From: Bacteroidetes bacterium HLUCCA01
GTDB taxonomy: Bacteria > Bacteroidota > Rhodothermia > Balneolales > HLUCCA01
DNA length: 64,000 nt
Reading direction: 5' to 3'
Assembly (NCBI GenBank): GCA_001314545.1
Contig: LIHN01000019.1
Span: 62,001 to 126,000, forward strand
The notes beneath the pieces are model-generated. The model did no database searches and was not told where the DNA came from. It saw only the letters and a program-made list of their open reading frames with translations. The stretch's first letter is position 1; every line of letters starts with the position of its first letter. The position numbers were made by a program, and so were the translations under genes. Positions 1,894-47,568 of this stretch are shown here, piece after piece.

Positions 1894-3126
1894 ATGCAAG
1901 GTAAACGTATTTTACTGGGTGTGAGTGGCGGAATCGCCGCTTACAAGTCCGTTTACCTCCTCCGTGAATTACAGCAACAGGGTGCTGAGGTACGCGTGGT
2001 GATGACCCCCTCAGCTACCCGTTTTGTAGGCACGGAAACCTTCGCAGCACTCAGTCGCAACGAGGTTCCGGTTCACGTCTTCAACGATGAGGGCAACGGG
2101 GATATCAGTACGTCATGGAGCAGGCATATCCACTGGGCTGAATGGGCTGATTTGATGATTGTGGCCCCATGCACAGCCCATACGCTGGCCGGTCTGGTTC
2201 ATGGTTTTTCTGATAACATGCTCCTGACCACGGCACTTGCCGCCCGGTGCCCCTTACTGCTTTGCCCTACCATGGATGGAGGAATGTTCCGGTCCGCCCC
2301 GGTGCAGCGCAATCTAACCCTGGCCTCAGAATTGGGTTTTCATGTGCTCCAACCCGATAGCGGGTACCTGGCTTCCGGGCTCGATGATACGGGCAGATTA
2401 CCTGAAACGTCCGTCATCCTTGACTTTGCCCGTGGCTTGTTGCACGACACCCATAAAGCGTCTCTCCTGCCTGCATCCACCGGAGCATCATCCCCTTTAA
2501 GCGGTAAACGTGTTCTGGTTACTGCCGGACCAACGCGGGAGTTTATTGATGCAGTGCGGTTTATTTCAAATCCGAGCAGCGGAAAGATGGGCCTGGCCAT
2601 GGCCGAAGCTTCCAGGGAAATGGGAGCGGAAGTCACTTTGATACACGGTCCCCTCGCTATTCCCATCCCCGATGGTATCAACGCCCGGTCAATTATTTCT
2701 GCAAATGACTTATTTGAGGCAGTCAGCGCTCAGTTTGCCACTTACGATGTGATTATCATGGCTGCAGCCGTTTCTGATTTCAGCCCGGAGGAGCAGGTCA
2801 ACCATAAGATCAAAAAAACGGATGCTGCCGAGCAGCTCCTCCTTCGACCAACACCGGATACCCTGAAATGGTTAGGGGAAAACCGCCGTGAGGGTCAGGT
2901 TATCATTGGCTTTGCTATGGAAACTGACAACCTGGAGGCAGAAGTGGAACGCAAATTACAGACTAAAAACGCCGACTGGATTTGCGGTAACCTGTTAAAC
3001 GCTCCGAATAGCGGCTTCGAATCCGATGAAAACACGATTCTCCTAAAAGGAAGAGCCAGCCAGCATCTGCTGACCGGCTCTAAACTGGTTGTAGCCCGTA
3101 AAATTCTGACCGAAATTTTTACTTAA
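1894..3126 (+). CDS. coaBC: Bifunctional phosphopantothenoylcysteine decarboxylase / phosphopantothenate-cysteine ligase
   Basis: CoaBC carries out two consecutive steps of coenzyme A synthesis: ligation of cysteine to 4'-phosphopantothenate and FMN-dependent decarboxylation to phosphopantetheine. The N-terminal CoaC flavoprotein half starts with GVSGGIAAYKS and has the APCTAHTLA and CPTMDGGMF regions, the latter carrying the PXMNXXMW-like active-site motif in diverged form. The CoaB half starts near residue 205 with KRVLVTAGPTREFIDAVRFI and includes SNPSSGKMG and AAAVSDF. The length (410) is typical. The ORF ends by overlapping the stop of the convergent GHL10 gene by 8 bases, leaving no room for a terminator. 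PanB, an earlier enzyme of the same pathway, is at 21.7 kb. Confidence 0.93.
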   Translation: MQGKRILLGVSGGIAAYKSVYLLRELQQQGAEVRVVMTPSATRFVGTETFAALSRNEVPVHVFNDEGNGDISTSWSRHIHWAEWADLMIVAPCTAHTLAGLVHGFSDNMLLTTALAARCPLLLCPTMDGGMFRSAPVQRNLTLASELGFHVLQPDSGYLASGLDDTGRLPETSVILDFARGLLHDTHKASLLPASTGASSPLSGKRVLVTAGPTREFIDAVRFISNPSSGKMGLAMAEASREMGAEVTLIHGPLAIPIPDGINARSIISANDLFEAVSAQFATYDVIIMAAAVSDFSPEEQVNHKIKKTDAAEQLLLRPTPDTLKWLGENRREGQVIIGFAMETDNLEAEVERKLQTKNADWICGNLLNAPNSGFESDENTILLKGRASQHLLTGSKLVVARKILTEIFT

Positions 3127-4933
3127 TCAAGGTCATTTTTCCGGTTAACTGTACCCCTCCTGCCCTCAGCGTATACAAATACATTCCGGAAGCCAGTTCG
3201 GATGCATTAAACTGAACGCTGTGTGAACCTGCGCTTCGCAGTCCACTTTCCAGCACAGATACAACTCTGCCGGTTATGTCGTAGACGGTGAGTTGCACCA
3301 CACTGCTTTCCGGCAAGTGATAGCGTATCTGGGTTGTAGGATTAAACGGGTTCGGATAATTCTGTTCCAACACGATGTCTGCGGCAATCTGAACGGATTC
3401 CAGACTTGTTTCAACAAGGACGTCGGATGGTTCAGAAACCGGTCCTACCGTTGCATTTCGGCCCAGTACCTGCACATAGTAGGAGTAATTCATATCCTGT
3501 GGTCTAACCGATGCAAACGTTTCCCGGAAGGTTGTTTCTCCCGTCAGAGCAACAACATGATCTTCGGTTAGGGTACCGTCAAAGTCATCGTTATCAACAC
3601 GATATACTAGATAAAAGGCCAGAGAGTCGCCATTGGCGCGGTTAACCTGTACGGGATTCCAGCTCAGTTCTACTGAATTTCCATCTGTAGTAAGCTGACT
3701 TGTAACACCTTCAACCCGATCCGCAATAGGTTCCATTGATATCCAGTCAAGCTGCGGTGGCACAGCTGGAATTCGGTTAACCCGGGTCTCCAGCGAGTCA
3801 GCGAGACCCTTGGAAATAAATAATCCAGTGACATAACGAGACCGGAAAAGAATATTTCCTTGTATATCCGGGTTTTCCCGGTTGAAATCCAATTGATCCA
3901 GGACCTCCGTTACCGGCCAGTTTGACGGCGATGCGAACCGATACGGTGCGTTTCCGGTGTACAAGTGCCGTTGTGCTGGTCCTGTCTGTTCACTCCACCA
4001 TCGACTCAACCGGGCGTAATCTTGTTGTCCTCCGAATTGCCAGTATAATTGTGGGGTGAGGTAATCTACCGTTTCATCGTTTAGCCACGCCAGAGCATCA
4101 GCGTAGATCACCGAGTAGGCATCCATACCGACAACACCTATCGGAGTAGCATTCTTGTATATCCCAAATGGTGAAATTCCGAATTTGACATGCGGTTTTA
4201 CCGACTTGATACTGTCATGTACCGCTTCTACCATTCGGTTAATATTATCTCTTCGCCAATCGGCAATGTTTGTAAATCCACGATTATGATCCTGAAACGT
4301 CTGCGCGTCCTGCGTGGAGGTTGTTGTCATGTTATTGGGTGGATAGGGATAGAAATAATCATCGAAATGAATCCCGTCTACATCATACCGGCGGACGATA
4401 TCCATAACCACATTGGTAATGAGCTCCTTGGTTTCCGGTAATCCGGGATCAAATATTCGGATAGTACCGGAGGTCAGCAGCATTTCCGGGTTTGCTTTGG
4501 TGACATGACTGTCGGCCCGCGGATAAAGATCAATTACACGTTCAGCCCGGTAGGGATTCAACCATGCGTGAAGTTCCATTCCACGCTTATGCGCCTCTTC
4601 AATGGCAAATTCGAGTGGATCCCAATAGGGGTCCGGAGCTACACCTTCGGTTCCGGTCAGGTAATACGACCATGGTTCAAAGTTGGAATTGTATAGGGCA
4701 TCCCCTTCAGTGCGTACCTGAAAAATAATGGTATTGATACCAGCCTCTTTCAGATCATCCATCTGATTCGTCAGGGTTAGTTTTTGCGATTCGGAATTTA
4801 TTGAACGGTTTGTAGGCCAGTCCAGGTTGGCAACGGTTGCTATCCATACTCCCCGCATTTCTTCAGCGGGTTGTTGTGCCGTGGCCGTGACGCTTATGAG
4901 CATCAGGGCGAGTATACTAAGTAGTAGTTTCAT
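3119..4933 (-). CDS. T9SS-secreted glycoside hydrolase-like 10 (GHL10) protein, DigH/YngK-like
   Basis: After a signal peptide (MKLLLSILALMLISVTATAQ), the protein enters a GHL10 (formerly DUF187) barrel: EEMRGVWIATVANLDWP, then GINTIIFQVRTEGDALY, DGIHFDDYFYPYP and FGISPFGIY. A fibronectin-like region follows, and the last 85 or so residues are a T9SS type A sorting domain (NYPNPFNPTTQ... ending GKMTLIK). GHL10 includes E. coli DigH, which cleaves peptidoglycan glycan strands stripped of stem peptides; that substrate is inferred here from family membership. The ORF track starts at 5017, but that start would put the upstream terminator hairpin (4965-5000) inside the coding region and spoil the signal peptide. 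The ATG at 4933 is therefore preferred. Confidence 0.85.
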   Translation of the reverse strand: MKLLLSILALMLISVTATAQQPAEEMRGVWIATVANLDWPTNRSINSESQKLTLTNQMDDLKEAGINTIIFQVRTEGDALYNSNFEPWSYYLTGTEGVAPDPYWDPLEFAIEEAHKRGMELHAWLNPYRAERVIDLYPRADSHVTKANPEMLLTSGTIRIFDPGLPETKELITNVVMDIVRRYDVDGIHFDDYFYPYPPNNMTTTSTQDAQTFQDHNRGFTNIADWRRDNINRMVEAVHDSIKSVKPHVKFGISPFGIYKNATPIGVVGMDAYSVIYADALAWLNDETVDYLTPQLYWQFGGQQDYARLSRWWSEQTGPAQRHLYTGNAPYRFASPSNWPVTEVLDQLDFNRENPDIQGNILFRSRYVTGLFISKGLADSLETRVNRIPAVPPQLDWISMEPIADRVEGVTSQLTTDGNSVELSWNPVQVNRANGDSLAFYLVYRVDNDDFDGTLTEDHVVALTGETTFRETFASVRPQDMNYSYYVQVLGRNATVGPVSEPSDVLVETSLESVQIAADIVLEQNYPNPFNPTTQIRYHLPESSVVQLTVYDITGRVVSVLESGLRSAGSHSVQFNASELASGMYLYTLRAGGVQLTGKMTLIK

Positions 4934-4964
4934 GATAAACAGGCGGGCAAATGTAGTGAGGTAG

Positions 4965-5000
4965 AAAAAAAAAGCATACAACCCGAAGGTTGTATGCTTT
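4965..5000 (-). terminator. Rho-independent terminator after the T9SS propeller gene
   Basis: A perfect 13-bp stem (AAAGCATACAACC / GGTTGTATGCTTT on the plus strand) encloses a CGAA loop, which reads as the stable TTCG tetraloop on the minus strand. A run of T residues follows the stem on the minus strand. It lies 26 bases beyond the stop of the propeller gene at 5026 and 32 bases upstream of the GHL10 start, so it should end the TonB-receptor operon. GHL10 would then need its own promoter or read-through. Confidence 0.9.
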
Positions 5001-5025: not shown

Positions 5026-6342
5026 TTACTTAACAAGAGTCATTTTGTTCGTCAGGCGAACATTTCCGCTAACCAGTTCATAGATGTAAACACCGGATCC
5101 CAGGTTGCTGGCATCGAAGTTTACGGTATGATAGCCGGCAGGCATGGTGTCGTTAACCAGGGTAGCAACTACGCGACCAAGCATGTCATAAACTCGCAGG
5201 GTAGTCATACCGGATTGAGCCAGTTCATAGGTGATGGCAGTAGTTGGGTTGAACGGATTAGGAAAGTTCTGATTAAGGGTATAACCAGAAGCCAGATCTA
5301 CCTGATCTTCAACACTTACAACCAGTTCCGTATTAGGCCGGGTTGCGTGTTGCATACCAACAGGCTCACCGCTGGCACGGAAGACTCCATGGTAAACAGT
5401 CAAACCATCAGGACTGAACGCGATACCACGTGGACGATAGTTAACAGGATCTTCGGTTTCATACATGAATCCGCCGTCAACTATTTCTCCGGTAGCCGGA
5501 TCAATACCGTAGTAAGTATTAGGAGCATAATCGGTACCCGTTTCTTCACCATTAAAGAAGTTAGGAGCATCATTACCCGATCCGGTTGCAGAATAGAGCA
5601 GGTTATTGATTCTGTCATATACCATTGATTCAGAAGCGAAGCCCTTAACGAGCGTATCCGGTACCTGATCAAATCGGCTGAATTCATCCGGACGGCTGTA
5701 GGCAAGAATGGAGCCTGTGGTGTATCCTGGCCACCAGATGGTATTACCATCAGGAGAAACCTCCAGGGTTCGCGAGAAGCCGCGAGCGGAATCAACTGCG
5801 TTTTCGATGAAATTGAAGTTCTCATCGTAGATTTCAACCTGACGGACAGGAATTACGTAACCCATGAAGATATTACCATTATCATCAACACCGGGAGTGA
5901 TACCAGGAGAAGCAAGATCCATTTTACCCATGCCTTCACCGGTTTCATAGTTTATGCGGTACAGGGTATTGGGTCCACCCATGGTAAACAGAATGTTTCC
6001 ATTGTGATCAGCGCGCATTCCGCGTGCAGAAGCGGGTGACATAAGGGTATCAGGCACTCCGTCAATGGTAATGATCTGAATAGGCGAGAAGTCGGCCTCA
6101 GATCCATCTGGATTGAACACATCGATACGCAGTGTTGCTACCGTTGAATCCGGATTCCCTGCAAACGGTACGCCACCGACACGATAAAAGCTTGAAGTCC
6201 AGATTTTTCCGTCCGGATCAACAGCCAAACCATGCGTGTCAGTCAGATACTCAACATTAGGGAAAGGTCCTTGATTTTCCCATTGTGCAAATACCAAGAC
6301 AGGCAAAAGTATCACACCAAAGGTTAGTAGGAGTTTTTTCAT
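5026..6342 (-). CDS. T9SS-secreted SMP-30/NHL-like beta-propeller protein
   Basis: This 438-residue secreted protein has a signal peptide (MKKLLLTFGVILLPVLVFAQ) and repeated propeller strands of the type DPDGKIWTSS, DHNGNILFTMG, DDNGNIFMGY and SPDGNTIWWPG. Such repeats are typical of SMP-30/gluconolactonase-like or NHL-like folds. From about residue 350 it has a T9SS type A sorting domain (NFPNPFNPTTA... ending NKMTLVK), so it should be displayed on the cell surface or released. It is the last gene of the minus-strand operon, 24 bases after the IPT/TIG lipoprotein, and is followed by a strong terminator. I do not see lactonase active-site residues clearly, so no substrate or enzyme activity is proposed. 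Confidence 0.8.
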   Translation of the reverse strand: MKKLLLTFGVILLPVLVFAQWENQGPFPNVEYLTDTHGLAVDPDGKIWTSSFYRVGGVPFAGNPDSTVATLRIDVFNPDGSEADFSPIQIITIDGVPDTLMSPASARGMRADHNGNILFTMGGPNTLYRINYETGEGMGKMDLASPGITPGVDDNGNIFMGYVIPVRQVEIYDENFNFIENAVDSARGFSRTLEVSPDGNTIWWPGYTTGSILAYSRPDEFSRFDQVPDTLVKGFASESMVYDRINNLLYSATGSGNDAPNFFNGEETGTDYAPNTYYGIDPATGEIVDGGFMYETEDPVNYRPRGIAFSPDGLTVYHGVFRASGEPVGMQHATRPNTELVVSVEDQVDLASGYTLNQNFPNPFNPTTAITYELAQSGMTTLRVYDMLGRVVATLVNDTMPAGYHTVNFDASNLGSGVYIYELVSGNVRLTNKMTLVK

Positions 6343-6366
6343 AGTAGTCCTTTTTTGTTTTTTTAT

Positions 6367-7560
6367 TTAAAACCCATAGTACGGGCTTGGGTCTTTAAGT
6401 ACGTTTACTGTTCTTAAAGTTCTTTCCTCTTCCAGAGAAGGTGTTGCATCCATTGTCACCAGAATTTCAGTACCGGAGGCCCAGAAAGCGTCGACATAGT
6501 TAAAATCCAGTACACCGGGATAGAGCGGCTGAACACTTTCACCCTCAAAAAATCGAATAAATCCAGGGGATTGAGACAGTGCAACAAATATTTCCCCATC
6601 ATCAGCAATTTGTATACTCTGTAATGACCCACCATCTTCATAATTAAGCAATTCTACCGGAGTTTCCAATTCATTATTAGCATTAATTGGGATGCGCCAG
6701 ACAACTTCATTTTGTTCAACGTTGCCAACTACATATAAGTTATTATTGTAGTAACGAACACCACGCCAGTTACCAGGTACCTCGAAGGCTTGTCCGGCAG
6801 CAGTTTCAACATCAAATCGGAATATGTTGGTAGGAGATCCAACAGCCCATGCGTTCCCGTTGGGATCGAAATCCATGGAAGCAAAGGCGTTACCATTGGG
6901 GGCAACAAAGCGGGCACCAAGTGCTCCTCCACCGGGTGGTATCCGGAATATTGCACGCACTACAGGCCGTATCAGGTACAGCGAGCCGTCACTGCCGTAA
7001 CGCAGGGTTCGCCAATTGAACCGGGGTACACTCGCATAGACACTGTATTCACCCGTATCAACGTCCCTGCGCAAAACACCTACACTGGCACCATCTTCCT
7101 CAGCATACATGAAAATATTGCCGTCAGGGTCTGTCGTAACGCCAAATGGACGAGTTGAGCCAGCTCGTAATTCTACACGTTGATAGGCTGCTGAAAGGGT
7201 ATATGGTACAATTTCACTGTACTTATCGCTGGAGAGCGTGGATATTTGAACCGGTAAATCTTCACCAACCACAACGGGTGGTCGTACACGAAGCTCGGTG
7301 TCAGAAACCTGGTTCACCAAGGCTTTCTGACCGTCAAAGAACACAAAAACCTGATCTGGATTGGTTCCGAAATGTTGGCCCGATATCACCACTTCATCAA
7401 CGCCGGCCAGCCAGCCATCAGCTGGCGACATTGACTGAACGACGGGTTGCGGACCAAAAACTGCGTCCTCGTCAAAAAGGGAATTGACGGAGTCATCACA
7501 TGCTGTGAATACAACTGCCGTTACCACCATCAATCCTGCGATTTTACTATGTAATTTCAT
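6367..7560 (-). CDS. IPT/TIG-domain lipoprotein with C-terminal beta-propeller
   Basis: The N-terminus is a lipoprotein signal (MKLHSKIAGLMVVTAVVFTAC) with the lipidated Cys at about residue 21. An IPT/TIG immunoglobulin-like domain covers about residues 40-120 (VQSMSPADGWLAG, VVISGQHFGTNP, VFFDGQKALV). The remaining 270 residues are propeller-like, with repeats such as DPDGNIFMYAEED, GSDGSLYLIRP and DPNGNAWAVG, resembling those of the next gene. IPT/TIG plus NHL lipoproteins are common in polysaccharide-utilisation loci as surface glycan-binding proteins; a ligand-binding role here is inferred from that. It lies 12 bases after the PorV-like gene and shares its operon. Confidence 0.78.
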   Translation of the reverse strand: MKLHSKIAGLMVVTAVVFTACDDSVNSLFDEDAVFGPQPVVQSMSPADGWLAGVDEVVISGQHFGTNPDQVFVFFDGQKALVNQVSDTELRVRPPVVVGEDLPVQISTLSSDKYSEIVPYTLSAAYQRVELRAGSTRPFGVTTDPDGNIFMYAEEDGASVGVLRRDVDTGEYSVYASVPRFNWRTLRYGSDGSLYLIRPVVRAIFRIPPGGGALGARFVAPNGNAFASMDFDPNGNAWAVGSPTNIFRFDVETAAGQAFEVPGNWRGVRYYNNNLYVVGNVEQNEVVWRIPINANNELETPVELLNYEDGGSLQSIQIADDGEIFVALSQSPGFIRFFEGESVQPLYPGVLDFNYVDAFWASGTEILVTMDATPSLEEERTLRTVNVLKDPSPYYGF

Positions 7561-7572
7561 AATCCTTTATTC

Positions 7573-8595
7573 TTAAAAACTTAACTGGATTGAAAGACGA
7601 TTCACACTGTTGAAAACGCCGAAGGCCGAGTGGGAGAAATCAGCTTTGATGCCATATCGACTGGCAAAGGCTTGTGAAACACCGACACCGAAGGATAATC
7701 CCTGCTCGTCTGATGGGAATACATACCCCGAGCGAAGGTGAAGTCGTTGAGCAAAGGTATACTCCGCACCTATCATTAACTGTTCGTAGTAGTCGCGGGG
7801 CCGGTTGGCATCCACACTAACCCAAAGCTTATGCATGTCCGGATTCAAGGATGTAAGATCAAACACGTTCATCGCCAGTCCGATTCTGAATGTAAGCGGA
7901 AGCTCCTGCGTATCCCTGATGTAGGAGATTTCGCGAGAGTAGTTACGCAGTGACATGGCAAAATTCAGACTTTCGAAACCAGTCTTGAATAACACACCAA
8001 AATCGATGGTGAACGTATCGGCAATAAAACGCTCGCGTGTAAAACCATCAGCCTCATCATCCGAACGAGCCGTAATTGCGTTGGCCAGGTCCAGTTCTGC
8101 ATAGCGGATGTTACCGCCTACTGAAAACTGATTGCTGATAGCACGGGCATAGGTAAATCCAAATGCATAGGCTGAAGGACTGAATGTACCTAATACTTCA
8201 TATCCGAGATCCGAGTCTTGTCGGACGGTTTCTGTCATTTGGCCGTAATCAGTACTTAGCATAGACAATCCGAACACGCCGAATCTACCGTTTCGCGGAC
8301 GAAATGTCATGGCGGCATACTGATATTCGATATCGGCTATCCATGAGACATTTCCCATCGATACATCAAAAAGACTTTGCTGAAATCCAAGCGCTGCAGG
8401 ATTATAAAAAATCCCCATTGAGCCTGTTTCCATGGCTGTCACCGCGTCACCCATACCCGTGGCCCGGGCGCTGAGTGGTGCTGACAGGAATTTCATCGTA
8501 GTCTGAGCACGCTTTTCCTGGGCATAACTGTCGGCATAGGTAAAGACAGTCAGTAAAAGCGCAGCAATAAGGAATTTGGTTAGGTGTCTGTTCAC
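7573..8595 (-). CDS. PorV/PorQ family outer membrane beta-barrel protein
   Basis: The 340-residue product has a signal peptide ending near SYAQE and then the family pattern LSAPLSARATGMGDAVTAM and MGIFYNPAAL, seen in PorV/PorQ and related barrels. Alternating aromatic strands continue to a terminal SIQLSF, as expected for an outer membrane protein ending in Phe. PorV is the T9SS shuttle that passes cargo from the translocon to the attachment complex; family members outside the core T9SS often sit beside their cargo. Here it is 13 bases downstream of the 713-aa protein. The start is GTG at 8595, chosen because the signal peptide begins there. Confidence 0.8.
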   Translation of the reverse strand: MNRHLTKFLIAALLLTVFTYADSYAQEKRAQTTMKFLSAPLSARATGMGDAVTAMETGSMGIFYNPAALGFQQSLFDVSMGNVSWIADIEYQYAAMTFRPRNGRFGVFGLSMLSTDYGQMTETVRQDSDLGYEVLGTFSPSAYAFGFTYARAISNQFSVGGNIRYAELDLANAITARSDDEADGFTRERFIADTFTIDFGVLFKTGFESLNFAMSLRNYSREISYIRDTQELPLTFRIGLAMNVFDLTSLNPDMHKLWVSVDANRPRDYYEQLMIGAEYTFAQRLHLRSGYVFPSDEQGLSFGVGVSQAFASRYGIKADFSHSAFGVFNSVNRLSIQLSF

Positions 8596-8608
8596 AATAA
8601 TACCTCAG

Positions 8609-10726
8609 TTACATTATTACTACAAATTTTCTGGTAACACGCTCGCCTGTGTCCAAATTCTCAATACTGGCGATGTAAACCCCCGAGACAATGCGCTGCC
8701 GTGATGAAGTGTTCAGATTCCATTCAGCATCACCACTGCCATCGCTGTGATCAATGGTTTGAATATGTTCACCCATCTCGGTATAAATATCAATACGGGC
8801 ACGACCGGGAACTTCAAAGAAGAAAATTCTAGAGCGTTCAAAGGATACATCGGTACCCGCAGAATCAATATAGGGATTCGGTACTACTACAATCTGATCC
8901 ATGGTCTCACCGGGCTGTCTGCGTAAAAAAGCAGGATCGTATGTTTGGGTAAAGTACCGGCTGCTGCGAAGTGCCCGATCCGCCGGCGTGAGTGCTGCAC
9001 CGGTATTCTGATTGTCCAGACCTACAGCCTGGATGTAATAGTAGTAGTCAATACCACGAATCGGTCCACCCAATGGATTGTCATCAGTGTCGGCAAATTC
9101 GCGCACATTGGGATCAACGGTTGCAATTCGGACGTAGCTGCTGTCTCTGCGATAGCCGGCTCTGTAAATTTCGAACCCCTGGATGTTGGCTGTTTCGGCA
9201 TCCGGATACTCCCAACTCAGATAAATCCCGTCCCCACCGGAGTCCACATTAAAAACGCTGGGCGGTTGGGGTGCTTTCGGAGCAGAATAATCTGAAAGGA
9301 AGTTTTCAAGGGCCCGGTTGAACGTGAGCATTAACGAATCCCGTCCTTGGAAAACCCACTCATTTTTGTTGAAATTGTAGACGGTACCATTGACTTCGTA
9401 TGGTATATCCTCATCGTCGTCACCATCAGATAATTTATAGGCTTCACCGATAGCCTGAGCAGCTTCACGGCCAATACCTGATGCAGCCTCAACTTTAACA
9501 ATTCGTACAGATTCACCTGGTGCTAATGTATAAGGACCCACGCCGGAAGCAGCAGAATATCCACCGGAAGAACCACGACTCGGATCCTGAGTTTGTTCCT
9601 CAAATACACCTGACGGTGTTACCAGAAATGCGTGGCGTGGAGTACGTCCGGCTTCCATAAACCGTCGGTATTCCTGCTCCATACGAGTCTCGTTGAACGA
9701 GTCATTCGGACGGTTCAGGTCATCATCTGACTCAGTTTCTGTCATGGTTGAGGGTTGGTTGGGGTCATGTGCTGTATTTCCCGGAGCGGTGTCAATGTGC
9801 AGAAAGGCATTGCCAACAAAGTGATAGGCACCCAATCGTCCGGATGTATCATCAGCGGCTATGTCAGCTGAATTGGCACCAGTCCAGATAGGCCCGCCAA
9901 TGTGATTGTAATCTACAATAGCAGGCGGGTTGGTCATCAGGCCGTGCCAGGTAAAATGACCGGCAAGACGGGGATCGGCACCGTAGTTAGGTCCAAGGCC
10001 ATCCCCGATTCGGTCGGTCATGGCATTTTTACCCCAACCTGAAGCATTACCCACAACATATCGGGTTTCATTGACAACCGAGTATCGATACTGCCAGAAG
10101 AAGCGAACGTTTTCCAGTGTCTTATTAGGGAAAATGACCTCATCTGTATCATCCGCTCTGCCTGTGTTGGTAAACGTATACTCCATTACATGGTAGTTGT
10201 CATGAAACGCATTGGTGAACTGCATGATCCGGCGTTCCATTGTAATACCAAGCGACGTATTTACACGGGTATAAATCATGCGGTCAGATGGAAGATTAGG
10301 ATCAACCTCGTCAACCTCATCCGGATTATTAAACGATGCATCGCCGTCAACAAACACCTCGGTAGGTCCGTAGCGACCAATGAGTTTGTGCTCCATCGGG
10401 AAGAAGGTGTCAAGACCCGAAGTTCGAGGACCGGCATGAACCAGCTTATATGGATATTCAACCCCGTTTTCATCGGTAAAATTGGTGGTACCTATCCATA
10501 AACCTTTGGCAGCCTGGCTGTTCTGATTATTGTACACCGCAGGCCACTGCAGACCGAATTGCTGCTGGGTTACCAGCGCATGTTCCCGTTCATTACCTAC
10601 TGGCATGAAAAAGTTGTTCAGGGATCCAACGGATAACCAGCGAGGTTGCGTCTGAGCCGAGGCACTTTGACCAATGGCAATCAGTGCGATACAAACCGGT
10701 AGTATTCTGAAAATATATTTATACAT
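8609..10726 (-). CDS. Large secreted protein with fibronectin-III-like region and FlgD/T9SS-like C-terminal tail
   Basis: The ATG at 10726 gives a normal signal peptide (MYKYIFRILPVCIALIAIGQ, cleavage near SAQ). The ORF track's upstream TTG start at 10750 would add eight residues before it. The bulk (about residues 40-480) resembles no fold I recognise, though it is rich in Trp, Tyr and acidic loops. A fibronectin-III-like module follows (SWEYPDAETANIQGFEIYRA). The end resembles a FlgD-like or variant T9SS sorting domain (VVVPNPYIDSAG, GVYIASIEN, RKFVVIM). This tail differs from the NPFNP type of its neighbours. It sits between the TonB-dependent receptor and the PorV-like barrel, which suggests a surface-exposed partner of the receptor. 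Function is unknown. Confidence 0.7.
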   Translation of the reverse strand: MYKYIFRILPVCIALIAIGQSASAQTQPRWLSVGSLNNFFMPVGNEREHALVTQQQFGLQWPAVYNNQNSQAAKGLWIGTTNFTDENGVEYPYKLVHAGPRTSGLDTFFPMEHKLIGRYGPTEVFVDGDASFNNPDEVDEVDPNLPSDRMIYTRVNTSLGITMERRIMQFTNAFHDNYHVMEYTFTNTGRADDTDEVIFPNKTLENVRFFWQYRYSVVNETRYVVGNASGWGKNAMTDRIGDGLGPNYGADPRLAGHFTWHGLMTNPPAIVDYNHIGGPIWTGANSADIAADDTSGRLGAYHFVGNAFLHIDTAPGNTAHDPNQPSTMTETESDDDLNRPNDSFNETRMEQEYRRFMEAGRTPRHAFLVTPSGVFEEQTQDPSRGSSGGYSAASGVGPYTLAPGESVRIVKVEAASGIGREAAQAIGEAYKLSDGDDDEDIPYEVNGTVYNFNKNEWVFQGRDSLMLTFNRALENFLSDYSAPKAPQPPSVFNVDSGGDGIYLSWEYPDAETANIQGFEIYRAGYRRDSSYVRIATVDPNVREFADTDDNPLGGPIRGIDYYYYIQAVGLDNQNTGAALTPADRALRSSRYFTQTYDPAFLRRQPGETMDQIVVVPNPYIDSAGTDVSFERSRIFFFEVPGRARIDIYTEMGEHIQTIDHSDGSGDAEWNLNTSSRQRIVSGVYIASIENLDTGERVTRKFVVIM

Positions 10727-10746
10727 GATTGACTTGTGTCTGATTA

Positions 10747-13700
10747 TCAAAATGAAATTCGGACGCCGAATATTACATTGCGCGGGTTGAAGAAGTGGAA
10801 GGACTCAAAGTTTGGCATGTCTATGTATGCCTTGTCATCGAGTACCTGTCGTACAAAGTCAGGATCTGCTGTCACAAATTGACCTGTTTCAGCATTCCAA
10901 CGGTAGTAGGCTTCATCAGCATAGTTATAATACAGAGGCCTTACATGCGGCGAGTTGACATCGGTCAGCTGATTGACAGCTACAATTGGCTGGAATTCTA
11001 CACCGGGCTTTCGGAAATCACCGGGACGGTCACTGCCGGGAACAGTATTGTAAGATCCGCGGAGGGGTTCCAGCTTGTCAGCAGGAAGATGAAGCGAACG
11101 ATAGTAGTTGTTAGAATCTTCACCATCCATGAACCCTGCTGTAGAAAGTCTTCGGGTATTCAGCACATTATTTATGTCAACAAAGAAGTTCATCGACAAA
11201 TCAAATGGTCTGAAAGTTCTGCTGAATCGCAGGTCAAAGTTGTAATAGTCTCGCCACTGTAGGTTATTGGCTATTCCGGGTATTGAGCCCCCACCGGCCC
11301 AGGTCAGGTAAAAGCCTGACTGCCAGGAGGCAAGCAATGAAGCACGCCAGTCGGCCAGTGGTCGAAACGCACCCATTGAGGGACCGAAGTCAACCGGAGT
11401 GAAGAAATCCAGGTTGGCGCGCGCGTACGGTTGTGCGAGTGGCTTAACCTGTGGGTTGATAGCCTGCTGACGTTCAAATTCACGCTGGTCTTTCTGGTTC
11501 TGATAGACGTTGGTAAATCCAAAACGGCCGGTTGAACGTATCATATAGGTATAGTTCACAAAACCCTGGAAGTACCTGCCCTGCGCCTTGCGAACGGTTA
11601 TTTCAAAACCCCGGATATCACGATAACCGTCTGCGCTGGAGGTATTATAGAGTAACCCACCGGTTTGGTCGCGATAGGCAACATTGGAAGGCAGGTTCGA
11701 CTCATCTTTATAGTAGCCGGCCATTCTGAGCAGATATTGCTCGGAAAGTGCTTGCTCAAAGCCCAATTCGTACGATACAGTCTGGGGCAGGGCAAGATTT
11801 GGATTGGCTACGCGGTTGATGGAGTTGTTTTCAATCAGACGTTCAACCCGGTACAAGTTGTCGGGTGATGGCATCGACCGGAAGTGTCCATAGTTGAAAA
11901 ACAACTTGCTGCTGACGGTAATTGGAAATGATACGGCCAGACGTGGGCTGATTGTAAACTGGGGATCCGTGCTTTCCGTGTCAAAAAACTCTTCCAGCTC
12001 TCCAGGCAGGGCCGTAGCAAATCGTTCATCGAAGACATCGTAAACAATCCATTGTGCATTGGCATTGGAGTAGTCTACTCGCAGGCCGACTTCTGCTACG
12101 ATTCCTTCATATTCGAATTTGTTTTGTGCATAGATGGCACCGCGGATGGGGTTATTGTCCCATACCGTGGTTGTCCTGCCAGAAAGCAGGACCTCATCAA
12201 CCGAACCGTAATTTACATCACTGAAGGTCTGAACCAGTTGGAAACCTGTTTTCAGCTGATTGTATCGGTTATATTGATTGGTGTAATCGAAACGTACATT
12301 GGTGTAGGCAACTTGACTTGAATCGCGTGCATTACTCATACCGACGCCCATCCTCAGACTAGACCCGATTCCATTGGCAGGAAGTGGCCAGAATCCAAAG
12401 GGAGCCTCATCAACGGGAAAACCATTGCCGAAGGTACGAACTGCAGAGGTATCGCGAAGTGAGCCGGGGTTGGTATCGTACGCTGAACTGAAATAGTTGG
12501 CCGTAACCTCGTAGTAGGAGTCGCTATTGAGTACATGGGTAAATTTACCGCCTATGAGGCGATAGTCAACCTGGGTTGGTGCCCAGTAGTCGGAGGCGAA
12601 CATCCTGGAATCACCAAACGATGTGGAAGTACTGACCGAACTGGCAATGCCTGCAGCACTGGTGAAAATACCCGGAGCACCTACGTTGTTGGATGACGTA
12701 CCTGACTCCCCTCCCATCATCGCATCAATACTCAGTTTCATACCCTGAGCGATGTCGCTGGTAAGTTTGAAATTGGTCGTATAGGTCTCATACCGGTCTG
12801 AAGATAGCGGTATAACGTACATGGATTGTGAACGGCGATGGGATGCCCAGAAACGCAGGTTACCTGCAGATTCGGATATCACCGGAACCGGACCACCGAA
12901 ACCGAAATCAAGGGTAAAGTCGGGATCATTTATTGCCATATCCTTACGGTGCTGCCAAAGGAATATCTGTTGAGCGGCAAGCGGCGTAAGATGGCGGGTT
13001 GGATCCGGATTGGAAAGTGAGGCTTCGGCAATCGAATTCCATCCGTCAAAACGCGGATATTGTGCGCGTGTCCATGGATCCCATGCCTCTGTGCCTGTAA
13101 AAGCTACTTCCGAATCAACGTAAGGTCGAATCCAATACGAGTTGGGGTCGTTGGGAGCCGGACCAAAATGTTTGCTCGTTGGCGGATTGTGGCTGTAAAA
13201 AATATCAAAGTTAAAGCGGTCACGGCTGCCTTCTTTGGTAACCACATTAATCATCCCGGACTGTACATCGCCGTATTCAGCGCTAAATCCACCAGACTGA
13301 ACCTGAATCTCTGAAATAGATGTAATACTTACGGCAGTGAATGGGGTATTACTGCGCTCATCGCGGAGTGATAACCCGTTCAGATTGAAAGAAACCTCCT
13401 GTGTTGAACCACCACGAATGGCAAGCCCCTGGATACCGGCCTGAAGCCCGACAATCTGACCCACCGACTGAACCGGCAGGTTCCTGACTTCTTCGGCGTC
13501 AAGGTTGACCCGGCTCGCACCCACATCCCGCTGAATTACAGGTCTGTCGGCTACAACCACCACCTCAGAGCCGGCGAAAACTTCCTCACTCATAGCGAAG
13601 TCCAGCGTTGTGGTCTGATTGATATTTACACGGACATCGGTAATCCGGATGGTGCTGTAACCGATATAGGAGGCCCTTACGGTGTAGGTTCCTGCCCTGA

Positions 13701-13935
13701 CGTTGACCACAGAGAAGTAGCCGTCAAGATCGGTAGCCGCACCAATCTCCAGCTCTTCAATGTAGATGTTAACGCCAATCAGTGGCTCACCGCTGGTCTC
13801 GTCGACGACGGTTCCTTCCAACCGGCCCGTTTGTGCAACTACGCTTCCGGCAGTAACCAGAAGCAACAGCAACATCATGATGGGCTTGCGCAGGTTGAAA
13901 GTTGTCAGATCAGGTAGTAATCGTGCATCATACAT
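10747..13935 (-). CDS. TonB-dependent outer membrane receptor with carboxypeptidase-like N-terminal domain
   Basis: The 1062-residue product has a signal segment (KPIMMLLLLLVTAGSVVAQ), then a carboxypeptidase-regulatory-like (CarboxypepD_reg) domain (GRLEGTVVDETSGEPLIGVNI) at about residues 38-120. The plug follows with VVADRPVIQRDVG, LPVQSVGQIVGLQAGIQG and FSAEYGDVQSGMINVVTK. The remainder is a large 22-strand-type barrel ending in NVIFGVRISF with terminal Phe. Such receptors import ligands using the proton-motive force through TonB. It is the first gene of the operon, but no SusD gene follows, so it is not a classical SusCD pair. The next gene overlaps or abuts its stop, which implies coupling. 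Substrate is unknown. Confidence 0.88.
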   Translation of the reverse strand: MYDARLLPDLTTFNLRKPIMMLLLLLVTAGSVVAQTGRLEGTVVDETSGEPLIGVNIYIEELEIGAATDLDGYFSVVNVRAGTYTVRASYIGYSTIRITDVRVNINQTTTLDFAMSEEVFAGSEVVVVADRPVIQRDVGASRVNLDAEEVRNLPVQSVGQIVGLQAGIQGLAIRGGSTQEVSFNLNGLSLRDERSNTPFTAVSITSISEIQVQSGGFSAEYGDVQSGMINVVTKEGSRDRFNFDIFYSHNPPTSKHFGPAPNDPNSYWIRPYVDSEVAFTGTEAWDPWTRAQYPRFDGWNSIAEASLSNPDPTRHLTPLAAQQIFLWQHRKDMAINDPDFTLDFGFGGPVPVISESAGNLRFWASHRRSQSMYVIPLSSDRYETYTTNFKLTSDIAQGMKLSIDAMMGGESGTSSNNVGAPGIFTSAAGIASSVSTSTSFGDSRMFASDYWAPTQVDYRLIGGKFTHVLNSDSYYEVTANYFSSAYDTNPGSLRDTSAVRTFGNGFPVDEAPFGFWPLPANGIGSSLRMGVGMSNARDSSQVAYTNVRFDYTNQYNRYNQLKTGFQLVQTFSDVNYGSVDEVLLSGRTTTVWDNNPIRGAIYAQNKFEYEGIVAEVGLRVDYSNANAQWIVYDVFDERFATALPGELEEFFDTESTDPQFTISPRLAVSFPITVSSKLFFNYGHFRSMPSPDNLYRVERLIENNSINRVANPNLALPQTVSYELGFEQALSEQYLLRMAGYYKDESNLPSNVAYRDQTGGLLYNTSSADGYRDIRGFEITVRKAQGRYFQGFVNYTYMIRSTGRFGFTNVYQNQKDQREFERQQAINPQVKPLAQPYARANLDFFTPVDFGPSMGAFRPLADWRASLLASWQSGFYLTWAGGGSIPGIANNLQWRDYYNFDLRFSRTFRPFDLSMNFFVDINNVLNTRRLSTAGFMDGEDSNNYYRSLHLPADKLEPLRGSYNTVPGSDRPGDFRKPGVEFQPIVAVNQLTDVNSPHVRPLYYNYADEAYYRWNAETGQFVTADPDFVRQVLDDKAYIDMPNFESFHFFNPRNVIFGVRISF

Positions 13936-14276: not shown

Positions 14277-14414
14277 AAGTCATTTTTAATACCTATGTTG
14301 TACGGGAGACGAGATCAAGGCCGATCTGCAAGTAAACGGCTTTATGGCCTGATTGCTGCTGACAGGCATTATTTACCAACGAGAACGCCTTCCCGGCAAA
14401 TTTATTCACCTGCA

Positions 14415-15377
14415 ATGACACCTACCCATCTAGCTTTTGCCATCGTACTTACCGGTATAATGGCCACCTCCGTTCAGTCCCAGATAAGACCGGCCGGTGA
14501 ACCCGTTATGCTTACGGATAACATGGACCTTTCCCTGCAACGCCCGGTCCCCTCACCTGATGGTAAAACCATCGCACTTACCGGAAGTAATTTTACCGGA
14601 CTCTATCTGATTGATGCAGAGCAGCCATCGGAGCTGATAACCCTGCATTCGCAACCACACTCAGGCTTCAATGTACGCTGGTCGCCTGACGGCCGGCATC
14701 TGCTCACCCGGTACTCACACCCACAGCAGATGGGCCGGTATTTCAGTATCCGGTTATACGATGTAGACGGAGAAGGCTACCTGGATTTGAACGAACCCGT
14801 TCCCCATATGCCGGCAACACCCTTCTTCGACAGTCATCAAGAGCAGGTGGTGCTACCACTCGGCGGCGATGTTCAGTATTTCAGACTCCCACCGGCAAAG
14901 ACAGCCTCATCACCCACAAATCCAGAACCGCAGGTACAGGCTTCAGGTGACCGTATCATATACATCGATGAAGACAATACCCTTCGTCAAATTCAGCCAG
15001 ATACCGCTGCAGATCTACACTATCTCAACGCACGTTTATCACCGGATGGCAACTATCTGGCCTACGAGGTATATGGAGGCAACTTGTATGTCCTCAACAA
15101 CGTGACCGGTGAAATCACCGATTTCGGAGTCGGTTTTTTCCCGACCTGGTCACCCGATAGCAAGTACCTGTCCTTCACACGCAACACCGATGACGGGTAC
15201 CGGCACACCTACGGCGAAATCGTGGTTGCCTCACCGAACCGTTCACAGGAAGAGGTGATTTATGCGAGCAGTGAAAATATACCTGCTCACCCTCATTTCT
15301 GTACCGTTCAGAACCGCATCTACTTCGACTATATGGGAAGTGGAACCATCATGTACATCGACCTTCTCACCAATTAA
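14415..15377 (+). CDS. Secreted PD40/TolB-like beta-propeller protein
   Basis: The start at 14415 (MTPTHLAFAIVLTGIMATS...) gives a clean signal peptide; the ORF track's 14295 start adds 40 basic residues with no export signal. The mature protein carries PD40/WD40-like strands typical of TolB C-terminal propellers: RPVPSPDGKTIALTG, VRWSPDGRHLLTRY, ARLSPDGNYLAYEV and PTWSPDSKYLSFTR. No TolB N-terminal domain is present and the protein is short (320 residues), so it is not TolB itself. It is 9 bases upstream of the T9SS-tagged amidase, almost certainly in one transcript with it. Its role may be binding or scaffolding for that amidase, which is inference. Confidence 0.75.
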   Translation: MTPTHLAFAIVLTGIMATSVQSQIRPAGEPVMLTDNMDLSLQRPVPSPDGKTIALTGSNFTGLYLIDAEQPSELITLHSQPHSGFNVRWSPDGRHLLTRYSHPQQMGRYFSIRLYDVDGEGYLDLNEPVPHMPATPFFDSHQEQVVLPLGGDVQYFRLPPAKTASSPTNPEPQVQASGDRIIYIDEDNTLRQIQPDTAADLHYLNARLSPDGNYLAYEVYGGNLYVLNNVTGEITDFGVGFFPTWSPDSKYLSFTRNTDDGYRHTYGEIVVASPNRSQEEVIYASSENIPAHPHFCTVQNRIYFDYMGSGTIMYIDLLTN

Positions 15378-15386
15378 TCAGTCGCT

Positions 15387-17900
15387 ATGAAATCGTTGAA
15401 TGCAGTTATTTATTCTATCCTCTTCATCGCGCTGCTCCTTCCATCTCCCCTGCAGGCTCAGCAAGAAGACACCCCTGCTGTAACCGGATTGTCGGAATGG
15501 AGCATCTTTCTGGACCCCGGACACTCCCAACGCCAGAATATGGGACTTTATAACTACTCCGAGGCTGAAAAAGTGCTTCGGGTTGCCCTGGCGCTCAAGG
15601 ATATGCTCGAAAATCAGACCGATATCGGTGCGGTTTACATAACCCGCACCAATGATGATGTGGAAGTAGGCCTGACCCAGCGAACGGAAATGGCCAATGC
15701 TACCGGTGCCGATTTCTACTACTCCATTCACAGTGATGCCGGACCTCCGGGTGTAAACTCAACGCTGATGCTCTGGGGTGCCGACGGTCAGGGCGTTGAA
15801 AAATTCCCCCGTGGCGGGAAAAAAATGGGCGATATTATGGACGTCGACCTTACCGAAAGTATGCGCATCGGCAGAAGAGGTTCCAGAGCTGACTCCCCTT
15901 TTTACGGAGCCACAACCAGAACAACCCCCTATCTGGCCGTTAACCGCCTTACCAACATGGCCTCGGTTCTCAGCGAGGCGGGATTTCATACCAACCCTAC
16001 ACAGCAAATGCGTAACATGAACGCGGAATGGAAGCGACTTGAAGCACAGTCTGCCTTCTGGTCCATACTGGCGTATCATGGTCTGGAACGACCTTCAGTA
16101 GGTATTGCAACCGGCTATATCACCGATGTGGATGACAATGCCTACATCAACGGGGCAACCATCGAAATCAACGGCCAATCCTACACAACCGACAGTTTTG
16201 AGTCGCTTTTCAATCGCTACTCCAGCAATCCTGACGCCCTTGCCAACGGATTTTATTATCTGGAAAATCTGCAACCCGAAGGTTCCTACACGATGGATGT
16301 CAGTGCCCCCGGTTACTATCCGGAAAGCCGGCAAATAACCCTTCGAAACGACTTCTTCACATTTACGGATGTTGAGCTGGTATCCAGCGTTCCTCCTGCC
16401 GTAGTGAGTACCCTTCCCCAATCAGACGCTGATAACTTCGACCGTCGCGAGCTCATCCAGATTACATTCAGCCGGCAGGTGCTGGCCTCATCGCTTGAAA
16501 ATCAGATTTCGTTCACACCGGCGGTGGATTTCACCTACACCCTGCGCGAGGGTCGTTATCTTGAAATTGCTGCCCCGGATATGGACTATGACACCCAATA
16601 CAGCGTCACCCTGGGCGAGGGAATCGAAGATCTGGCCGGTCATACGTTCGACGGTAACGCAGATGGTACCGAAGGTGAGTCATACACGTTTGTATTTAAA
16701 ACCGGTCCGCAGGACACCAACCCTCCGGTAGTTACCGATGCCTATCCATCCAGCTCCAATCAGGCCGTAGACCGTAATACCATCATATCATTTACGCTGG
16801 ATGAACCGATTCTTCGCTCAAGTGTCACCGATGAAACCGTAACGATTTCAAGCTCAGACGGCAGTCACGTGGCAGAACTCCACACGCAGGTGTATACATC
16901 GGGTGATCTATCTGTGATTCAGGCCTTCCCGGCGGAACTGCTGCAGCCCAACACATCCTACATAGCCACCCTGCAGCCCGGCGTAACGGATCTGAATGAC
17001 AATATGACCAGTCAGGCTGTAGAATTGTCGTTTTCTACTAACAACCTGGACTATGAGTACGATGTAATCGACAATTTCAACAGTGGCATTTCCGGGTGGT
17101 GGGAACCACAACAAAGCGGCAGTACCGTGGGTATCATCACTGAGCAAACATCACGGACATCCAACACCAGCATTACCAACCCGGTCACAGGAAGCACCGG
17201 TGCCATGAATATGAATTACGGATGGGATCCGGGAAATGGGGCCTGGCTTATTCGTAATTATCTGCCGCCCGGAGCCCCGCAGAATGCATCGGTACGGGTG
17301 AATCGAAATCAGATGCTTGAGGTATACCTTTTTGGTGACGGTTCCGAAAACCGGTTTCGTTTCATGCTCCGCGACGGCAGCGGTCAGCTGGAGGGAAGTC
17401 CATGGTATCAGGTTGACTGGATCGGCTGGCGGAAGGTACGATGGGACCTGTCATCGGTTTCGGCGGTGGGATGGGTCAACGGGAACGGTACCGTAGACGG
17501 CAACGCCTACACAGACAGCTTCCAGATGACCTATACCAGCGGAGCAGCCACACAAGGGCAGTTTATTGTGGATGATTACCGGGTGGTAACTGCGGTTATG
17601 GAAACCAGCACAGATGATATGTCGGTATCACTGCCCGGCGAGGTAACACTGCGCAATAACTACCCGAATCCGTTCAACCCAAGTACCCAAATCCAGTTTG
17701 AATTACCACAGGCCATGCCCGTACAGCTGCATGTCTATGATATTACCGGCAGGATGGTTGCTCAGTTGGCGGACGGCAACTTTACCGCAGGACTCCACTC
17801 GGTTACGTTTAATGCCGCAGGACTCTCCAGCGGGATGTACATCTATCAGCTGTCTACACCAGAAGGCAGGCTTTCCGGCAAAATGATGCTCGTTAAGTAG
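15387..17900 (+). CDS. T9SS-secreted N-acetylmuramoyl-L-alanine amidase (Amidase_3) with Big_5 domains
   Basis: Behind a signal peptide, residues about 30-225 form an Amidase_3 domain. Its expected zinc and catalytic positions are visible: FLDPGHS, NYSEAEKVL, YYSIHSDAG and LSEAGFHTNP. This enzyme class cuts the bond between MurNAc and the L-Ala of the stem peptide. A carboxypeptidase-regulatory-like module follows (about 230-330), then two Big_5 Ig-like domains (PAVVSTLPQSDADNFDRREL and PPVVTDAYPSSSNQAVDRNT). A carbohydrate-binding-like jelly-roll comes next, and then a T9SS sorting domain (NYPNPFNPSTQ... GKMMLVK). Export by T9SS places the enzyme outside the outer membrane, away from the cell's own wall, which is unusual for this family. 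Confidence 0.87.
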   Translation: MKSLNAVIYSILFIALLLPSPLQAQQEDTPAVTGLSEWSIFLDPGHSQRQNMGLYNYSEAEKVLRVALALKDMLENQTDIGAVYITRTNDDVEVGLTQRTEMANATGADFYYSIHSDAGPPGVNSTLMLWGADGQGVEKFPRGGKKMGDIMDVDLTESMRIGRRGSRADSPFYGATTRTTPYLAVNRLTNMASVLSEAGFHTNPTQQMRNMNAEWKRLEAQSAFWSILAYHGLERPSVGIATGYITDVDDNAYINGATIEINGQSYTTDSFESLFNRYSSNPDALANGFYYLENLQPEGSYTMDVSAPGYYPESRQITLRNDFFTFTDVELVSSVPPAVVSTLPQSDADNFDRRELIQITFSRQVLASSLENQISFTPAVDFTYTLREGRYLEIAAPDMDYDTQYSVTLGEGIEDLAGHTFDGNADGTEGESYTFVFKTGPQDTNPPVVTDAYPSSSNQAVDRNTIISFTLDEPILRSSVTDETVTISSSDGSHVAELHTQVYTSGDLSVIQAFPAELLQPNTSYIATLQPGVTDLNDNMTSQAVELSFSTNNLDYEYDVIDNFNSGISGWWEPQQSGSTVGIITEQTSRTSNTSITNPVTGSTGAMNMNYGWDPGNGAWLIRNYLPPGAPQNASVRVNRNQMLEVYLFGDGSENRFRFMLRDGSGQLEGSPWYQVDWIGWRKVRWDLSSVSAVGWVNGNGTVDGNAYTDSFQMTYTSGAATQGQFIVDDYRVVTAVMETSTDDMSVSLPGEVTLRNNYPNPFNPSTQIQFELPQAMPVQLHVYDITGRMVAQLADGNFTAGLHSVTFNAAGLSSGMYIYQLSTPEGRLSGKMMLVK

Positions 17901-36875: not shown

Positions 36876-36906
36876 TTACACTATTATTCCCGACTTGTTA
36901 CTATTT

Positions 36907-37476
36907 ATGCAAAACGATTTCAAACGAAAAGTTACTATTGATGCCCTCCAGCACCTGAGTACGTATAAAGCCATCATTGGTATTGTCCTTTTCAGCGCAG
37001 TAGCGGTGGTGTTTCTGTTCTGGCTGCTATATTTCAAGGAAGCAGCGGATCACACTTTTGCATGGGTCGCTCATCTGCCGGCAGTTAATGCCACGCTGAA
37101 CTCACTGGCAACCATATTACTGGTAGGCGGATTTTACCAGATAAAAAAGCGCGATTTCGACCGCCATATGCAGTTCATGATCGGTTCCTTTCTGATGTCA
37201 ACACTGTTCCTGGTCAGTTATGTGATTTACCATAATTTCGTGGGACATACCCCCTTCCCGGGCCAGGGATTCATCAGACCGGTGTATTTCTTTATTTTGA
37301 TAACCCACATCATTTTGTCGGTAGCTGTGGTCCCCATGATTCTGGGCAGCTTTTATTTTGCCTTCGCCGGTAAATTTGACGTGCATCGAAAATTATCCAA
37401 ACTCACCTTCCCTGTCTGGCTGTATGTATCCGTAACCGGAGTCGTTATCTACTTCATACTGAATGCTTACGTGTAG
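36907..37476 (+). CDS. DUF420 membrane protein, CtaM/YozB-like oxidase assembly factor
   Basis: The product has about 189 residues with five hydrophobic segments (AIIGIVLFSAVAVVFLFWLLY, TLNSLATILLVGGFYQI, FLMSTLFLVSYVIYHNF, FFILITHIILSVAVVPMILGS and VWLYVSVTGVVIYFIL). The conserved DUF420 His residues appear in DRHMQFM, YHNF, ITHIILS and DVHRKL. DUF420 includes CtaM/YozB, needed for maturation of haem-copper oxidases in Firmicutes. Its position just before the ACIII-caa3 operon supports a similar assembly role. The ATG at 36907 is preferred to the ORF-track TTG at 36895. It is 349 bases from actA and probably transcribed separately. Confidence 0.82.
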   Translation: MQNDFKRKVTIDALQHLSTYKAIIGIVLFSAVAVVFLFWLLYFKEAADHTFAWVAHLPAVNATLNSLATILLVGGFYQIKKRDFDRHMQFMIGSFLMSTLFLVSYVIYHNFVGHTPFPGQGFIRPVYFFILITHIILSVAVVPMILGSFYFAFAGKFDVHRKLSKLTFPVWLYVSVTGVVIYFILNAYV

Positions 37477-37522
37477 CCAGCTCATACCGGTCTTCACCTA
37501 CAGCACCCATCGGCCCGATTAA

Positions 37523-37553
37523 ACAAGGTATATCCGCGGATATGAAGCCTTGT
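37523..37553. repeat. Palindromic hairpin after the DUF420 gene
   Basis: A 14-bp perfect palindrome ATATCCGCGGATAT is nested inside outer arms ACAAGG and CCTTGT. As RNA it could form a two-part stem; as DNA the palindrome could be a dimeric protein site. It lies 47 bases past the DUF420 stop. No T-run follows on the plus strand, so it is not a standard intrinsic terminator. Confidence 0.45.
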
Positions 37554-37749
37554 CCCTGAACAGCTGAACCTTACGATGTTGGCCGCCTTGTAAAGTCATG
37601 AACGCCGTAATTTCTGATAATTTTCGGGCATTTTTGCTTTTTTGGCGATAACTTTGAAGCTATCTTAAACAGGTCAGCGTTTAGCTTTAGCATTGTTTAG
37701 AATAGATACAAATAACTTCGTTTCAGGATGCTGAACGCCGCCTTTGCCG

Positions 37750-37757
37750 TATATTTG
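37750..37757 (+). promoter_or_regulatory. Candidate -7 box of the ACIII operon
   Basis: TATATTTG matches the TAnnTTTG -7 consensus. The position 20-22 bases upstream reads ATG where TTG is expected, so the -33 element is one mismatch away. A start site just downstream would give a leader of about 60 bases to actA at 37826. Confidence 0.4.
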
Positions 37758-37825
37758 GCACTTGTCTGAACACGGCTGTTTTCTCTATCACGACATACAA
37801 TCACAAAACCTGAACCTGGTCAAAC

Positions 37826-38473: not shown

Positions 38474-38521
38474 ACGCGGAAAGCACCCGAATTTTATCAC
38501 TAGCAAATCGTACACATCAGC

Positions 38522-41524: not shown

Positions 41525-41558
41525 GAATAGACCTATTATATAGAAATCAACATTTCAG

Positions 41559-42959: not shown

Positions 42960-42965
42960 ATCCGC

Positions 42966-43517: not shown

Positions 43518-43544
43518 AACGGAACCCGATTTACCAATAAATCT

Positions 43545-44198: not shown

Positions 44199-44232
44199 TT
44201 TTTTGATATAAAATCATATAGTCAGATTTCTT

Positions 44233-45417: not shown

Positions 45418-45430
45418 GGCTACCCTAACT

Positions 45431-45802: not shown

Positions 45803-45806
45803 ATTA

Positions 45807-46583: not shown

Positions 46584-46616
46584 AACCTATAACGAAAAAT
46601 AACGGCACGTTCCCGC

Positions 46617-47561: not shown

Positions 47562-47568
47562 TTAAGCT

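Follow-up and report, generated by a model that had tools for sequence, protein, structure and literature searches.

A TonB-dependent receptor operon of Bacteroidota encoding a predicted T9SS-type surface protein and a PorV-family barrel of its own

Glycan uptake in Bacteroidota is classically described by the SusCD design, in which a TonB-dependent receptor (TBDR) is followed by a surface partner and shares its locus with additional surface binders and with secreted enzymes that act on glycans. Pairs of a surface protein and an outer-membrane barrel are also known from the T9SS machinery, where PorZ is held by PorQ and PorU by PorV (PMC5562754) and where the C-terminal domains of PorU and PorZ stay uncleaved (PMC11285876). 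In addition, type B cargo proteins, as in F. johnsoniae, form dedicated pairs with PorP/SprF barrels without receptors (PMC12618676; PMC9143113). The locus described here has the layout of a SusCD locus, but the putative surface partner is a predicted all-beta protein (termed P713) that carries a T9SS-type C-terminal domain in place of a lipid anchor and is encoded together with its own PorV-family barrel. Among described principles, the closest is that of type B cargo and PorP/SprF, in which cargo tail and cognate barrel are likewise co-encoded, implying dedicated export or anchoring; the present set differs from it in the barrel family (PorV/PorQ), in the PorU/PorZ-like tail and in the presence of a TBDR. 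A search of the open literature, whose coverage left subscription journals and preprints largely outside, returned no description of a TonB receptor that is combined with a surface partner of T9SS type and a PorV-family barrel of its own, in line with the impression of an earlier note on this DNA that the function of the set is undescribed.

The window, i.e. the whole stretch of 64,000 nucleotides that was analyzed, contains the five tightly spaced minus-strand genes that the earlier note had pointed out (Table 1). Their spacing was verified as one 4-bp overlap and gaps of 12, 13 and 24 bp, and so was the strong terminator that closes the operon. Receptor identity is supported by matches to CarbopepD_reg_2 (1.6e-21) and Plug (4.6e-6), and the lipoprotein assignment by a lipobox cysteine (Cys21) that is present in 20 of 20 homologs. 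For the last gene, which had been called a T9SS-tagged propeller, the type A tail was confirmed, and the propeller part draws on weak NHL matches. The gene encoding a GHL10 enzyme is the first one past the terminator, yet it is a member of the conserved set, and the divergent genes for a TolB-like protein and an Amidase_3 protein also belong to the conserved neighborhood, though in eight loci each. The set of five, conserved together as it is, was thus drawn too narrowly, as it left out the GHL10, TolB-like and Amidase_3 genes.

Table 1. Features of the receptor operon and its neighborhood (positions in the window)
Feature	Position	Strand	Evidence or remark
GHL10 enzyme, T9SS type A tail, likely start ATG at 4933	3119..4936	-	PF02638 1.7e-73
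Intrinsic terminator, 13-bp stem and T-run	4971..5000	-	
Propeller-like protein, T9SS type A tail	5026..6342	-	TIGR04183 39.6 bits
IPT/TIG lipoprotein, predicted propeller	6367..7560	-	TIG 5.2e-12; lipobox Cys21 followed by Asp-Asp
PorV/PorQ-family outer-membrane barrel, 340 aa	7573..8595	-	NF033709
P713, predicted surface protein, 713 aa	8609..10750	-	Gene shares 4 bp with receptor gene; no Pfam family
P713 C-terminal domain, residues 606-713, PorU/PorZ-like rather than type A	8612..8935	-	TIGR04183 below cut-off; weak PDB profile matches
P713 FN3-like domain, residues ~487-600	8951..9292	-	PDB profile matches to pectate lyase FN3; Foldseek FN3 matches
P713 N-terminal domain, residues ~34-482, beta super-sandwich	9305..10651	-	Model pLDDT 90; Foldseek
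TonB-dependent receptor, 1062 aa; N-terminal CarboxypepD_reg-like domain, Plug, barrel	10747..13935	-	Present in 39/39 loci
TolB-like propeller, divergent	14295..15377	+	PD40 6.5e-12
Amidase_3 with T9SS type A tail, divergent	15387..17900	+	PF01520 9.6e-20 and T9SS tail
Amidase_2 with T9SS type A tail, convergent with Amidase_3 gene	18082..19887	-	PF01510 6.1e-17

The conservation of the set was analyzed in 20 regions from within the order, 20 from distant families and two named contigs, an orthologue being present at 39 loci. These range from members of the same genus to distant families of Bacteroidota, and all 39 contain the TBDR, P713 and the PorV-family barrel together, followed in frequency by TIG (37), the propeller (32), GHL10 (28), Amidase_3 (8) and the TolB-like protein (8). 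GHL10 is absent at 11 loci, some of which are truncated by contig ends. From its 42 matches across 16 genomes, each about 3.4 Mb in size, chance alone would place roughly 0.01 per locus. The operon is conserved far above chance expectation, and the neighborhood search with P713 that had been proposed as a check verified that the gene order is kept in relatives, phylum-wide. In every intact locus P713 adjoins the TBDR, at the position taken by SusD in SusCD loci. Homologs of P713 were detected in 44 of the 129 genomes of the order (E <= 1e-10; some match the tail alone), and full-length copies occur in many families of the phylum; a search of plasmid records returned no homolog. In the Ignavibacteriales genome SURF_24 (L007), the four-gene core is kept and the propeller and GHL10 are absent. 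Two loci (L055 and L056, in G126 and G102) hold a divergent version with a P713 of about 26% identity, a DeoR regulator and an EamA transporter upstream, proteins of about 510-530 aa without known family downstream and, further along in L055, an amidohydrolase. Two distant genomes (L117 and L121) carry a gene of 318-342 aa without known family between P713 and PorV (L117:9075-10103 and L121:7951-8907) and another of 488-489 aa, also without known family, upstream of the TBDR, with the TolB-like and amidase genes kept. Every part of the set comes from a known family except P713.

The receptor scores 68.2 bits with the SusC/RagA model TIGR04056, well under the cut-off of 368.25, and the match is confined to residues 39-180; by this family model it is not a SusC. 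The earlier note had placed an unrecognized protein, and no SusD, in the partner position, and this view withstood examination of both sequence and structure. SusD family models did not match the P713 sequence, SusD was absent among the Foldseek matches listed for the P713 model, and the alpha-helical SusD fold is excluded by the modeled mature chain, of which 38% is strand and 13% helix. Four matches to classical SusD genes are found elsewhere in the genome, so the cassette adds to SusCD and is no lineage replacement. An inverse distribution with SusD was considered and is not seen, PF07980 being present in 126 of the 129 genomes of the order. As in SusCD loci, receptor and surface partner are encoded with glycan-active enzymes (receptor and P713 at 39/39 loci, GHL10 at 28/39).

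P713 likely starts at the ATG at 10726, which is followed by a signal peptide, and its super-sandwich, FN3 and C-terminal domains (the latter of about 105 residues) follow each other in this order. AlphaFold predicts full-length P713 with a mean pLDDT of 82 and its N-terminal domain with one of 90. According to Foldseek, the latter resembles the super-sandwich of glycoside phosphorylases, GH15, GH65 and GH116 (E 1e-6 to 1e-5, with low TM values of at most 0.35), and a search of a viral structure library gave weak GH65-like matches only. Super-sandwich domains are found in GH65, GH94 and GH116 enzymes. P713 might accordingly be a catalytic or modifying protein instead of a lid that delivers substrate, as its Foldseek matches are the N-terminal domains of such enzymes and its homologs share invariant Trp, Asp, Gln and Arg residues; we consider this very improbable, because the helical catalytic barrel of super-sandwich enzymes is missing from the largely non-helical model. 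The modeled fold leaves the ligand of P713 unfixed.

The C-terminal domain of P713 had been described as a FlgD/T9SS-like tail. A T9SS-type domain is indeed present, but it does not appear to be an ordinary cargo tail and seems PorU/PorZ-like instead. It is not the cleavable signal of type A, as it scores 14.1 bits with the type A model TIGR04183, under the cut-off of 23 that the tails of the propeller-like and GHL10 proteins (42.6 bits for the latter) exceed. A profile of the domain, searched against the whole PDB, matched only PorZ (5m11, E 0.021), PorU (6za2, E 0.062) and one chance entry, the PorZ and PorU E-values being marginal, and a PorZ model matches the P713 tail at 1.1e-4. The neighboring barrel had been assigned to the PorV/PorQ family, which was borne out by 187.9 bits with NF033709 (cut-off 90). 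Scores under the cut-offs of the core equivalog models for PorV (NF033710, 81.8 of 250), PorQ (NF033711, 80.1 of 220) and PorV2 (46.2 of 325) mark it as a paralog that is neither core PorV nor core PorQ. The genome has separate genes for the core PorU-PorV pair, for PorZ and for PorQ, each above its own cut-off, so the cassette barrels are extra.

Tail and barrel go together. The profile of the C-terminal domain has 55 strong matches in 16 good genomes: 37 of these genes have a PorV-family gene directly downstream (85-277 bp on), in 12, all of a second conserved cassette type, such a gene follows on the same strand at a distance of 7.2-7.9 kb, and six run off contig ends, which gives a pairing of 49/49 among the resolvable genes. 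Two genomes without such tail genes are also without cassette PorV paralogs. By contrast, type A-tailed P713 paralogs have a PorV or TBDR neighbor in none of seven cases. Among P713 homologs with enough sequence, PorV is in the operon in 54/55 cases with a non-type-A tail versus 0/7 with a type A tail (Fisher p 1.6e-8, a value that ignores relatedness and thus overstates the evidence for genes related by descent); the direction of the association of the PorU/PorZ-like tail with a special barrel is clear. Six apparently unpaired tail genes and seven P713 genes apparently lacking PorV were inspected individually, and all but L141 are explained by contig ends, mis-called starts, one intervening gene or a PorV gene upstream of the receptor. 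The suggestion that an embedded PorV indicates a dedicated route of export or display is strengthened by this pairing. As with PorU:PorV and PorZ:PorQ, a predicted surface protein with a non-type-A, apparently (if weakly) related C-terminal domain is paired with a FadL-type barrel, and PorU precedes PorV in the genome just as P713 precedes the cassette barrel. Unlike those pairs, the cassette has no sortase or LPS delivery function, is partnered with a TBDR and occurs in extra copies, several per genome, besides the core genes.

The pairing is strong by itself, in one cassette type the tail gene sits several kb from receptor and PorV, and receptor-free pairs of cargo and barrel exist in the type B systems cited above. 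The PorV paralog could therefore serve display only, exporting or anchoring P713 as a surface binder or enzyme, with a co-regulated TBDR that imports the products alone. We regard this as unlikely, since P713 lies beside the TBDR, in the SusD position, in all intact loci and since paralogs that lose PorV also lose the TBDR. The reading preferred here is that P713 would act as the lid of the receptor.

The enzymes encoded around the operon point to a candidate substrate. In the PDB, the GHL10 protein matches Cwp19 (5oq2) at an E-value of 2.5e-88, and a control search for GHL10 finds a match in E. coli, whose GHL10 protein we take to be DigH. Cwp19 of C. difficile, a lytic transglycosylase acting on peptidoglycan, established GHL10 as a peptidoglycan-degrading domain (PMC6016235), and DigH cleaves the denuded glycan strands left by amidases (PMC12288456). 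The protein of the window is a clear GHL10 homolog; unlike these two enzymes, it is T9SS-tagged and encoded with an importer. Two T9SS-tagged amidase genes lie less than 6 kb from the set in the window. In one relative (G108), a run of TIG, propeller and GHL10 genes is followed by genes for a BadF-type sugar kinase, MurQ, an NlpC/P60 protein and NamZ, a family of exo-muramidases. This MurQ-NamZ neighborhood is seen in that one genome, where it presumably joins the TBDR-P713-PorV genes, which lie at the end of another contig. An NlpC/P60 gene also follows GHL10 in the distant locus L118. The kinase-MurQ pair of the relative resembles the MurT-MurK-MurQ and AmpG system of Tannerella forsythia, for which work has covered inner-membrane and cytoplasmic steps; a paper on MurNAc scavenging in this species calls import across membranes an open question (PMC7670621). 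AnmK and MurQ are both present in the genome of the window, and they are near-universal in the order (114 and 117 of 129 genomes), for which reason they were rejected as discriminating markers and only permit a peptidoglycan reading. The rest of the window was also considered as a peptidoglycan catabolic region and rejected as such, its annotated part consisting of housekeeping and respiratory genes. Among these, positions 36895-49290 encode DUF420, a multihaem cytochrome, an Fe-S protein, NrfD, ActD and cytochrome c oxidase subunits, i.e. an alternative complex III and oxidase operon.

Taken together, the nearby amidases, GHL10, NlpC/P60, MurQ and NamZ suggest peptidoglycan fragments, foraged or from the cell's own turnover, as the most likely substrate. 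The neighbors of the set vary and include a divergent PF07555 N-acetylglucosaminidase (L040:216-2129 and L042:12467-14386), the phosphodiester glycosidase NAGPA (L044, L046, L049 at 1-1218, and L050) and a metallophosphatase (L047, L051 and L053); the first two, found in several genera, are genes pointing to HexNAc-containing wall polymers. Such variation, together with a second GHL10 cassette that has a GntR/LacI regulator and an SSF-like transporter, would also fit a different polysaccharide (for example another HexNAc glycan or an exopolysaccharide) or a role in turnover of the own wall at division instead of foraging. This alternative appears somewhat unlikely to us in view of the peptidoglycan activity of Cwp19 and DigH, the characterized GHL10 enzymes consulted, the two amidases of the window and the genes that follow GHL10 in G108.

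Our favored reading, on which we are evenly balanced, is a TonB uptake system with a T9SS-exported lid held on a dedicated PorU:PorV-like barrel and with peptidoglycan fragments as the likeliest ligand. The T9SS would carry P713 out of the cell, and its tail, retained as in PorU and PorZ, would dock on the cognate PorV-like barrel that is sited with the receptor. The super-sandwich of P713 would then present glycan fragments to the TBDR for import powered by TonB. The TIG lipoprotein, which is probably outward-facing as judged by the Asp-Asp after its cysteine, may be a further surface glycan binder, and the propeller and GHL10 proteins, with their type A tails, would be carried by the core PorV as ordinary cargo of the T9SS. 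In such a pathway, amidases would remove the stem peptides, GHL10 would cleave the denuded strands, the receptor would take in the pieces and AnmK and MurQ would use them in the cytoplasm.

The genome of the window contains five cassettes, namely that of the window, L067, L068, L069 and L072 (cut by a contig end). L067 (C7:729000-746000) consists of a receptor, a 1084-aa protein, PorV, a GntR/LacI regulator, two GHL10 genes and an SSF-like transporter. L096 in genome G003 is alike, with a TBDR, a PorU/PorZ-tailed protein of about 1090 aa, a PorV paralog, a GntR/LacI-type regulator, two GHL10 genes and an SSF-like transporter, and this type is a regulated sugar locus on the same architecture. 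L069 (C7:40000-57000) represents the second conserved cassette type, which covers 12 of the 55 tail genes in the 16 genomes. It encodes, in this order, a PorU/PorZ-tailed protein of about 700 aa, a type A protein (DUF5689 and chitobiase-like), a lipoprotein of about 520 aa, a TBDR, a PorV paralog and an NHL lipoprotein. The divergent gene beside it encodes a T9SS-tagged Exo_endo_phos/DUF5689 protein, which suggests use of extracellular DNA or phosphate. As other cassettes adjoin nuclease-like or different genes, the architecture itself is not bound to peptidoglycan. Tandem arrangements also occur: in L102 (G093:C1:3248000-3267000) the pair of tail protein and PorV is repeated behind one TBDR, with identical scores for both PorV copies, and in L074 (C7:315000-330000 of the window's genome) tandem weak PorV-family barrels follow a 520-aa protein with a weak T9SS-like tail. 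Tandem weak-barrel pairs like the latter are present in most of the genomes sampled, and many genomes of the order have about ten PorV/PorQ-family genes each.

We tentatively propose, with more doubt than confidence, that these cassettes represent a second general design of TonB uptake parallel to SusCD, of which most sampled genomes of the order would hold several versions for different substrates, the one in the window importing peptidoglycan fragments. If true, this would be an alternative to SusCD that borrows the attachment principle of the T9SS and would link two outer-membrane systems that have been studied separately. It would also explain the abundance of PorV/PorQ-family genes in the order, and would supply testable pairs of cargo and shuttle as well as a candidate outer-membrane route for peptidoglycan scavenging.
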